DNA from: Nitrososphaerales archaeon
Lineage (GTDB): Archaea; Thermoproteota; Nitrososphaeria; Conexivisphaerales; Conexivisphaeraceae
DNA length: 41,931 bases
Direction of reading: 5' to 3'
Assembly (NCBI GenBank): GCA_023256385.1
Contig: JAGDXL010000019.1
Span: forward strand, 1 to 41,931
The notes beneath the pieces were generated by a model that did not search any database, was not told where the DNA came from, and was given only the letters and a program-made list of their open reading frames with translations. Positions 1 to 20,015 of this stretch are shown here, piece by piece (position 1 is the stretch's first letter; the number at the start of each line of letters is the position of its first letter). The position numbers were made by a program, and so were the translations under genes.

Positions 1-55
1 TCAATGCGCCCGCCTCGTAAGCGGGAGACCGCGGGTTCAAATCCCGCCCGGGGCT
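1..55 (+). tRNA. tRNA-Thr(CGU), 5' part outside window
   Basis: The anticodon arm is complete: stem CCCGC/GCGGG with 7-nt loop CTCGTAA, giving anticodon CGT for ACG (Thr) codons. The T arm is GCGGG-TTCAAAT-CCCGC, followed by acceptor strand CCGGGGC and discriminator T. The acceptor 5' strand and most of the D arm lie before the window. CCA is not encoded, so the CCA enzyme in this window would add it. No intron is seen in the visible part. Confidence 0.85.
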
Positions 56-101
56 CTCCTCATGCGTTTCGCAAATATATTGGTAGATTGCCCTCACGGG
101 C

Positions 102-2145: not shown

Positions 2146-2255
2146 TTGACGACCGTGGCGCGCGTGAAGCCACGCCCCTCCCCTCATTGCCCCCTGGGAC
2201 GGCAAGGTGGAGTCATGGGCGGGAAGCTCCTGGGCTTCAGCCGAGGAGAGCCTGC
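2146..2255 (+). mobile_element. Degenerate IS605/tnpB-derived remnant, copy 1
   Basis: The shortest of three related copies in this window. It starts with TTGACGACCGTGGCGCG, similar to the tnpB-like start of copies 2 and 3, and then, after a large deletion, has the shared 3' block beginning GGCAAGGTGG and running through GGGAAGCTCC and GGCTTCAGCC to GAGGAG. The hairpin CTCC..GGC-TTCA-GCC..GGAG is Watson-Crick paired in its inner stem here, while copy 3 has a G-U pair, so the fold is kept. The TATA box seen before the other copies is absent because the element abuts the end of the acyl-CoA synthetase gene. It sits just upstream of the citrate synthase promoter. Confidence 0.5.
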
Positions 2256-5620: not shown

Positions 5621-5730
5621 AATGGGGCGCGATGCGCGGCCGTGCCCCGTATACATATGATTACAGTATATTAGAAGTATTAAGTAAGCGGGAAAACCAT
5701 CAGGAAGCTAACGTGCGACCTCTCCCAAAG

Positions 5731-5956
5731 CTTTATAAAAGATTGTGAGTGCGTGGCATTGATGTCGACCGTGAGGCGCAGGTTTCATATATGCGCGGAT
5801 TGCGCGGCGCATATGCTCTACAGCACCCCGCGGTCGGCGCTCAGGACGGGAGCCATCCCCGATATCTATGGAGCTCCACCCCCTTTAGCTCCAAAGAGGC
5901 GGCAAGGCGGGGCAATTAGCTGGGAAGCTCCGGGGCCTTCAGCTGAGAAGTAGCTC
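5731..5956 (+). mobile_element. IS605/tnpB-derived remnant with promoter, copy 2
   Basis: Starts with a TATA box (CTTTATAAAA, 5731-5740). About 25 nt later comes TTGATGTCGACCGTG, which reads (L/M)(M)STVRRRF in frame and resembles the first residues of TnpB proteins. The rest of tnpB is missing. A 3' block starting GGCAAGGCGGGG and ending GGGAAGCTCC..GGCCTTCAGC..TAGCTC has the form of an IS200/IS605 right end, where omega RNA is encoded. The short ORF of the track (5753-5953) covers it. The 3' hairpin is weaker here than in copy 3. The surrounding 5587-5986 stretch holds only the prpD promoter, this element and the approach to tRNA-Pro. Confidence 0.55.
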
Positions 5957-5986
5957 CAACCTCCCGTCCTACGCTGTCTTCACTCA

Positions 5987-6060
5987 GGGGCTGTGGGCTA
6001 GCCTGGTAGGCTGCCGGCCTTGGGCGCCGGCGGTCGCCGGTTCAAATCCGGCCAGCCCCA
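5987..6060 (+). tRNA. tRNA-Pro(UGG)
   Basis: A 74-nt cloverleaf: acceptor GGGGCTG/CAGCCCC with discriminator A, anticodon stem CCGGC/GCCGG with 7-nt loop CTTGGGC (anticodon TGG), and T arm GCCGG-TTCAAAT-CCGGC. No intron and no encoded CCA. Confidence 0.95.
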
Positions 6061-19568: not shown

Positions 19569-19668
19569 GTGTCCGGCTATTTTGTGCATGTTATAAAGAT
19601 GTCAGGAGGTTTAGGGGAAGCAGCAAGCTCCGAACCTTAAGGGCGGGGATGTACGGACTTCCTAAAAG

Positions 19669-19868
19669 TTCTATAAAGATATGCGAGCATAACGGCATTG
19701 ACGTCGACTGTTGGGCTCAGGTTCCGCGTGTATGCCGATGAGATGGCGCGGGCACTCAGGATGGGACCGCCCGTCGTGTCCGCGGAGCTCCGCCCTCCAT
19801 CACCCGCGATATGGCAAGGTGGGGGCGATGAGCCGGGAAGCTCCGAGGCTTCAGCTGAGGAGTAGCTC
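19669..19868 (+). mobile_element. IS605/tnpB-derived remnant with promoter, copy 3 (best preserved)
   Basis: The TATA box TTCTATAAAG (19669-19678) precedes TTGACGTCGACTGTT by about 25 nt. The frame reads LTSTVGLRFRVYADEMARAL, which looks like the first strand and helix of TnpB. After an internal deletion comes the shared 3' block: GGCAAGGTGGGG, then hairpin CTCC-GA-GGC-TTCA-GCT-GA-GGAG and TAGCTC. The frame stays open to TAG inside the block, about 55 codons. A second right-end-like scrap (CCTTAAGGGCGGGGATG, 19636-19652) lies just upstream. Confidence 0.55.
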
Positions 19869-20015
19869 AAAATCATGTCATAATGGTGCATAGTGTATAC
19901 TGCTATATCGAATAGGTGAGCCACTTATCTACTGATGCCCAGGAGCATCCCGCCTAGACGACCTGCACTCGCCCGTGGGGATCGCATCGGCCCGCGCCGC
20001 ATGTAAATGTAAGAA
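19869..20015. other. Intergenic remainder, no gene seen
   Basis: Together with copy 3 this fills the 425-nt gap between the nuclease and DUF4443 genes. It holds a short inverted repeat GATGC/GCATC (19934-19949) and the region where a guide of copy 3 would lie (directly after TAGCTC). No coding frame, promoter or tRNA is evident. Confidence 0.4.

Follow-up and report, generated by a model that had tools for sequence, protein, structure and literature searches.

The window analysed here, i.e. the whole stretch of 41,931 nucleotides (G000:C6:1-41931), belongs to an archaeal bin of 560 kb (G000; 31 contigs, 55% complete), and at about 19.7 kb it carries on the plus strand a 276-bp internal-deletion derivative of an IS605-type element (19595..19870), as delimited by alignment with 20 or more copies and by comparison of empty and filled orthologous sites. 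The pentanucleotide GTTAT (19590-19594, plus strand), a variant of the insertion target described below, lies immediately 5' of it. Within the copy, a TATA-like box CTATAAAG from the tnpB promoter (19671..19678) is retained in the orthologue L080 of G001, the complete genome of a member of the same genus (1.594 Mb, single contig, 99% complete), and a tnpB-like TTG start at 19698 opens an N-terminal remnant (19698..19757) that was recognized in translations of 16 derivatives. The sequence then jumps to a 3' block (19749..19868), which corresponds to the last ~120 nt of a tnpB element and thus to a putative omega-RNA scaffold, here with six broken pairs, and which includes the right-end hairpin CTCC-GA-GGC-UUCA-GCU-GA-GGAG (19841..19862) that covaries with CCCCGCCC/GGGCGGGG in elements of a further genome of the genus, G002. 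All of these parts had been described in the earlier note for positions 19669-19868 and are indeed present; its coordinates omitted the left end and fell two bases short at the right end.

Two other copies on the same strand, which the earlier note had assigned to the same family (one ending at 5956, the other a shorter relic), do belong to it. Copy 2, located at 5732-5956 and as a whole element at 5682..5958 (left end approximate), is an older derivative that has undergone a further small deletion and has its orthologue at G001:108.8-109.2 kb (L123). Its perfect TATA box TTTATAAA (5732..5739) is identical in G001 and lies 255 nt before a gene for tRNA-Pro(UGG) (5987..6060, plus strand) that has no TATA box at -30, and the 30 nt between the right end of the copy and this gene (5957..5986) are a putative leader and guide. 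Copy 1 (2150..2248; E = 2.3e-6, 72% identity) is a right-end relic. A tRNA-Thr gene at the very beginning of the window (3..56, plus strand) is cut by the contig start, so that its upstream part is off the contig; it matches the tRNA-Thr(UGU) of G001.

The conserved block is genuine and cannot be put down to chance. For a 34-nt right-end pattern, the window contains one match where none is expected, and the 200-bp stretch 19669-19868 has 18 further matches in the bin (best E = 2.6e-33), to which a longer query adds matches of the left end. The family has more than 10 copies in G000, likewise more than 10 in G001 (at least 12 matches), and diverged relatives in G002. The right-end pattern gave no match in IMG/VR and 10 scattered bacterial matches in GTDB contigs, which is about chance level in a collection from which records near the source genome are possibly absent; an Rfam scan at gathering score yielded tRNAs only, and other matches were at chance. 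The ends of the G000 contigs C3, C5, C16 and C28 are at or near element copies. Position 1 of the window, too, falls within a tRNA-Thr gene, and the G001 counterpart of this gene is closely preceded by a copy, so that the assembly probably lacks longer copies.

A search for a full-length tnpB gene that shares the start and the right end of the copies was successful in the complete genome (G001:1047495-1048703). The element that contains it (L071, G001:1047391-1048723) has the left end GGTTAGGGGTTTGGGGAAGCAGT, the TATA box CTTTATAAAC and the right end GGGAAGCTCCGAGGCTTTAGCTGAGGAGTAGCTCAC, and its ATG is at locus position 796. The encoded TnpB is intact with 403 aa, comprises the Pfam domains OrfB_IS605 and Cas12f1-like TNB, and matches ISDra2 TnpB at 2e-31 with three catalytic motifs kept in the alignment. 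Three full-length relatives with 58-60% identity exist in G002, and in G000 a tnpB start fragment reaches the end of contig C3, so that a full copy may be missing from this assembly. Since a full-length gene is present in the same genus, the objection foreseen in the earlier note, that the lineage might have no related full-length tnpB, does not hold. The copies are internal-deletion derivatives of a tnpB-only IS200/IS605 (IS1341-type) element.

Empty sites define the ends. For the copy on C5, the G001 site reads TTTAT^GAGTACTGCGTTGACGAG in comparison to GCTCAC^GAGTGCCCTGTTGACGAG at the filled site, and for the copy C16_1 it reads TTTAT^CGTTTCGTTT (loci L124 and L120); the site of a G001 copy at 146.5 kb (G1_146) is empty in G000 and has a variant of the motif (L118). 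Insertion thus occurs 3' of the short fixed target TTTAT without target duplication, and the right end of the element is TAGCTC plus two bases. It follows that the element at 19.7 kb spans 19595-19870 and that its candidate guide flank (19871..19890, plus strand), defined by position relative to the right end only, begins two bases further 3' than assumed previously, when it was placed right after TAGCTC. Subterminal hairpins exist at both ends, at the right by covariation and at the left by eye in the sequences. The guide-bearing flanks that were queried, all from copies other than the one at 19.7 kb, matched no long stretch elsewhere, with one contig-end join as the exception.

Expressed in coordinates of the parent, the deletion junctions are 220|1256 in group A and ~267|1262 in group B/C, with further junctions at 241|1274, 133|1146 and 230|1214, and at 434|1137 in G002. 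Internal deletions arose repeatedly, and as groups A and B are possibly interconvertible via the repeat GCGCTCAGGGC, there were at least four independent deletions and perhaps as many as six. The TTTATAAA box is absent from most copies of group A, the largest class, whereas groups B/C and the window copies have retained the TATA box; given this loss in group A, a promoter plus an omega RNA does not appear to be maintained as a unit in the family. A constant 3' block of ~125 nt was considered as proof of selection and rejected, as other classes retain 170-250 nt and the common junction is accounted for by microhomology.

Group A has spread as a derivative in the way of PATEs or MITEs, i.e. it has no transposase gene, keeps its ends and occupies several sites. 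The MITE-like, non-autonomous spread that had been suggested from the window alone is borne out by G1_146 and a second G001 copy at 1443.3 kb (G1_1443), which are 97.8% identical over 268 nt in unrelated flanks, the former being the one whose site is empty in G000. Mobility would have been conferred by a Y1 transposase acting in trans. At E 0.1, no Y1 transposase domain (Y1_Tnp, PF01797) was detected in G000, G001 and G002, of which two (G000 and G002) are incomplete, and the same search found it in three relatives of the order; the transposase may have been lost or transient.

Deletion derivatives of this kind are known. PATEs (palindrome-associated transposable elements) of Haloquadratum walsbyi are core-deleted derivatives of IS605/IS1341-type elements (PMC3119063), and like these, the copies described here are transposase-free and have lost the core, with mobilization in trans, which in our case is presumed. 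Several core deletions of PATEs leave only the ends (52 bp; PMC3119063), whereas the copies here retain the left end, ~110-250 nt at the 3' end and often also the promoter and the N-terminus; the lineage also differs, and the target here is TTTAT. In Halanaerobium hydrogeniformans, a MISC tnpB locus and a PATE-like element are described; MISC consists of the 5'-most 102 nt and the 3'-most 70 nt of the tnpB frame and therefore has the same architecture as the elements here, but it is a single copy in a bacterium, and no spread of a multi-copy derivative has been described for it (PMC7290912). The element at 19595-19870 is an ordinary member of this known kind, and its family assignment was correct.

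Some copies share short flanks, which raised the idea of RNA-guided insertion (10-17 nt common to C16_19k and C16_1, and to C21 and C28). The right end plus 12 or 17 nt is common to L004 (G000:C16:19138-19258) and L010 (C16:1-33), and to L006 (C21) and L007 (end of C28), and the flanks then diverge at microhomology (CGTTTCGTTT, CGGGC); two of these four copies, C16_1 and C28, are contig ends. RNA-guided insertion was set aside because of these contig ends and microhomology strings, and the joins resemble a rearrangement, a duplication junction or an assembly join. Another repeat was seen upstream of the 38-kb copy of G001 (L079, flank at ~37.8-37.9 kb), where the flank is a repeat present several times in G001, in one case close to a gene of another TnpB family (1309 kb).

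The fold shared by 30 distinct sequences of the 3' block consists of a hairpin GGGYGG/CCRCCC, a stem GCYYCGCC/GGYGGGGC that encloses an inner hairpin, and the right-end hairpin on a basal stem. Of the alignment cells, 86% are paired, compared to 39-49% when slid, and 62 cells show double changes versus 23.7 in shuffles; with a corrected group A alignment, 89% of the cells are paired. At the family level, the last ~110 nt are, judged by this covariation, an omega-RNA-like scaffold, and this part of the earlier proposal stands. The arrangement is like that of ISDra2, where the TnpB-associated reRNA of ~150 nt comes from the right end, the flank serves as a 16-nt guide, and the TAM is the target motif that lies 5' of the element (PMC8612924). 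ISDra2 is a complete element with tnpA and tnpB and the TAM TTGAT (PMC8612924), whereas the elements here are derivatives.

Could the derivatives be stand-alone omega RNAs, expressed from the kept tnpB promoter and taken up by a TnpB supplied in trans, which their flank would direct, with the result that the donor site would be re-cut and the derivative kept or spread? The derivatives have kept the ~110-nt scaffold, which in C10, C16 and G1_146 is paired throughout, the processed scaffold of another TnpB has ~106 nt (PMC10278001), and G001 has a full TnpB. In addition, Pyrococcus abyssi expresses comparable RNAs from own promoters, namely sRkB/sRkC from intergenic repeats akin to the 3' end of orphan OrfB (TnpB), of which two with promoters are transcribed and promoterless copies are silent (PMC3124441). 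Expression and K-turns are shown there, whereas the elements described here are known from sequence alone, and the passage on them mentions no tRNA link, unlike what is found here (PMC3124441). The pattern of change argues against the idea as an explanation of the old copies, both main window copies among them: counted as unique events, 20 changes break the structure where 17.8 are expected by chance (P = 0.82), the copy at 5.7 kb has seven broken pairs, and the G001 orthologue of the copy at 19.7 kb ends after GGCTT and has lost the right-end terminus. In young group A copies, 10 structure-breaking unique events compare with 15.3 expected (P = 0.03; scaffold alone P = 0.17), which is a weak overall signal, and the class mostly lacks the TATA box, as mentioned. 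A first retention test on group A (8 broken versus 22.1 expected) was pseudo-replicated and is superseded by this unique-event test. Stand-alone omega RNAs are thus partly supported, in that some young copies have an intact scaffold, but they are an unlikely account of the family, and a maintained stand-alone role in the window copies is unsupported. The structure thus arose in the parent lineage and is decaying in old derivatives, and in both window copies the 3' block is kept because it ends the element, not because of selection.

Decay can be followed at five G000 copies that have G001 orthologues at the same sites, both main window copies included. Identity is ~84% in the interior, 95% in the right-end hairpin and mostly 90-99% in the flanks, and the right-end ~36 nt differ at 7 of 152 positions as compared to 51 of 324 in the interior (Fisher P = 0.0003). 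Simple decay is no explanation for the lower divergence of the right-end hairpin, which is a point against the account favored below. The reading frames of the 16 translated derivatives are broken or not conserved. A conserved small protein, in which the N-terminus would be fused in frame to the C-terminal tail, has in its favor an open frame in the 19.7-kb, C10, C18 and 5.7-kb copies, but other copies have no start codon or are frame-shifted, and the C-terminal frame varies between copies; these broken frames largely rule it out and make it extremely improbable. Dead copies without any role, even beside tRNA genes that would then use unrecognized promoters, agree with the broken frames and with an interior that has diverged as much as the N-terminal remnant (~84% identity). 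We nevertheless regard such plain relics as rather unlikely, because the three weakest tRNA promoters coincide with three sense insertions, and because a perfect TATA box is kept in both species at two of them, as described in the following.

ARAGORN detected tRNA-Pro(UGG) 30 nt past copy 2, tRNA-Leu(UAG) 31 nt past the copy on C21, and tRNA-Gly(CCC) ~55 nt past the copy on C31, and the Pro, Leu and Gly tRNA genes are arranged in the same way behind the element in G001. Further copies adjoin tRNA genes in other orientations, several of them in G002. In G001, TATA boxes were scored by a simple ad hoc scheme 42-18 nt upstream of 43 of the 44 tRNA matches (the 44th was below the family cut-off). 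Leu-UAG, Pro-UGG and Thr-UGU have the lowest scores with 2.3, 2.9 and 3.9, the others reach 4.4-8.0, and the background median is 3.3. At all three, the right end of an element lies ~25-31 nt upstream in sense orientation. Exactly these tRNAs would be the three lowest-scoring of the 43 by chance in 1 of 12,341 cases, a value that is partly post hoc, as the Thr case was noticed owing to its low score; other tRNA loci were also screened for adjacent copies. Each of the three is the sole gene found for its anticodon in G001, with a few matches left anticodon-less by ARAGORN. The tRNA genes found in G001 extend from ~1.27 Mb to 0.4 Mb through the coordinate origin, with none from 0.4 to 1.27 Mb, and most G001 copies of the element are in the same part of the genome.

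The best upstream TATA box of the Pro and Leu genes is the element's own TTTATAAA, at -255/-256 (Pro) and -249/-249 (Leu) in the two species. For tRNA-Thr(UGU), no clear TATA box is left in the upstream element, which is too decayed to indicate a promoter. In relatives, the Pro (G002) and Thr (G002 and G003) genes do have a usable TATA box at around -30, and the Leu gene of G002 has a weaker, TTTTAG-like one. Judged by its position and by this comparison, copy 2 appears to have taken the place of the promoter of tRNA-Pro(UGG), an essential tRNA gene. The earlier note had not remarked on this adjacent tRNA gene without a TATA box of its own.

The target explains how this could come about. The archaeal TATA box has TTTAT as its core, and for this reason the element probably landed repeatedly inside tRNA promoters. 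Because TTTAT lies 5' of the inserted element on the same strand, an insertion into a tRNA TATA box can only be in sense orientation and leaves ~25-31 nt to the tRNA gene, which is what is observed. Such coding-strand insertions would have displaced the tRNA's own TATA box, in case of copy 2 that of Pro-UGG and in the homologous cases those of Leu-UAG and Thr-UGU, and the promoter of the element probably took over. Taken together, a family of deletion derivatives, their landing in tRNA TATA boxes and the takeover by the element promoter are the best explanation of the data, to which we assign a probability of roughly 70%. The 3' block would then be the omega-RNA scaffold of the parent, and the tRNA would most likely be transcribed through the element, either from the tnpB promoter or from the displaced host TATA box further upstream. 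Upstream of Pro and Leu, AT-rich host remnants do exist (about -320 to -334), and it is possible that these drive both genes; also then, transcription would cross the element. A promoter of an unusual type may alternatively be present near the tRNA.

With transcription through the element, the pre-tRNA would carry an omega-RNA-like leader, which RNase P would remove. A comparable case is the dicistronic tRNA-sRNA of Nanoarchaeum equitans, in which a guide-type RNA and a tRNA share one inferred precursor and are separated by tRNA processing (PMC3491384). There, a C/D box sRNA is downstream of the tRNA (PMC3491384), whereas here the omega-RNA-like leader would be upstream, with transcription deduced from the arrangement. 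While deletion derivatives are of a known kind, the link to tRNA promoters is the new part, and no reports of IS605-type elements that replace tRNA promoters were found in a limited search of open-access papers.

It may even be considered that up to three tRNA genes, each the sole one found for its anticodon in G001, use a TnpB-less element as promoter and that RNase P at the same time frees a guide for a TnpB in trans, although we hold this to be very unlikely. If true, the scaffold with its 25-31-nt tail would be the leader, the guide RNA released by RNase P would have a defined 3' end, and the supply of a tRNA would be tied to an RNA-guided system, which would lock the element in place. The intact young and the decaying copies in two genomes form a natural set for the question of whether TnpB-less copies feed a TnpB in trans. 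More generally, a transposon that targets TATA boxes could capture tRNA promoters, substitute its own, and thereby become indispensable.
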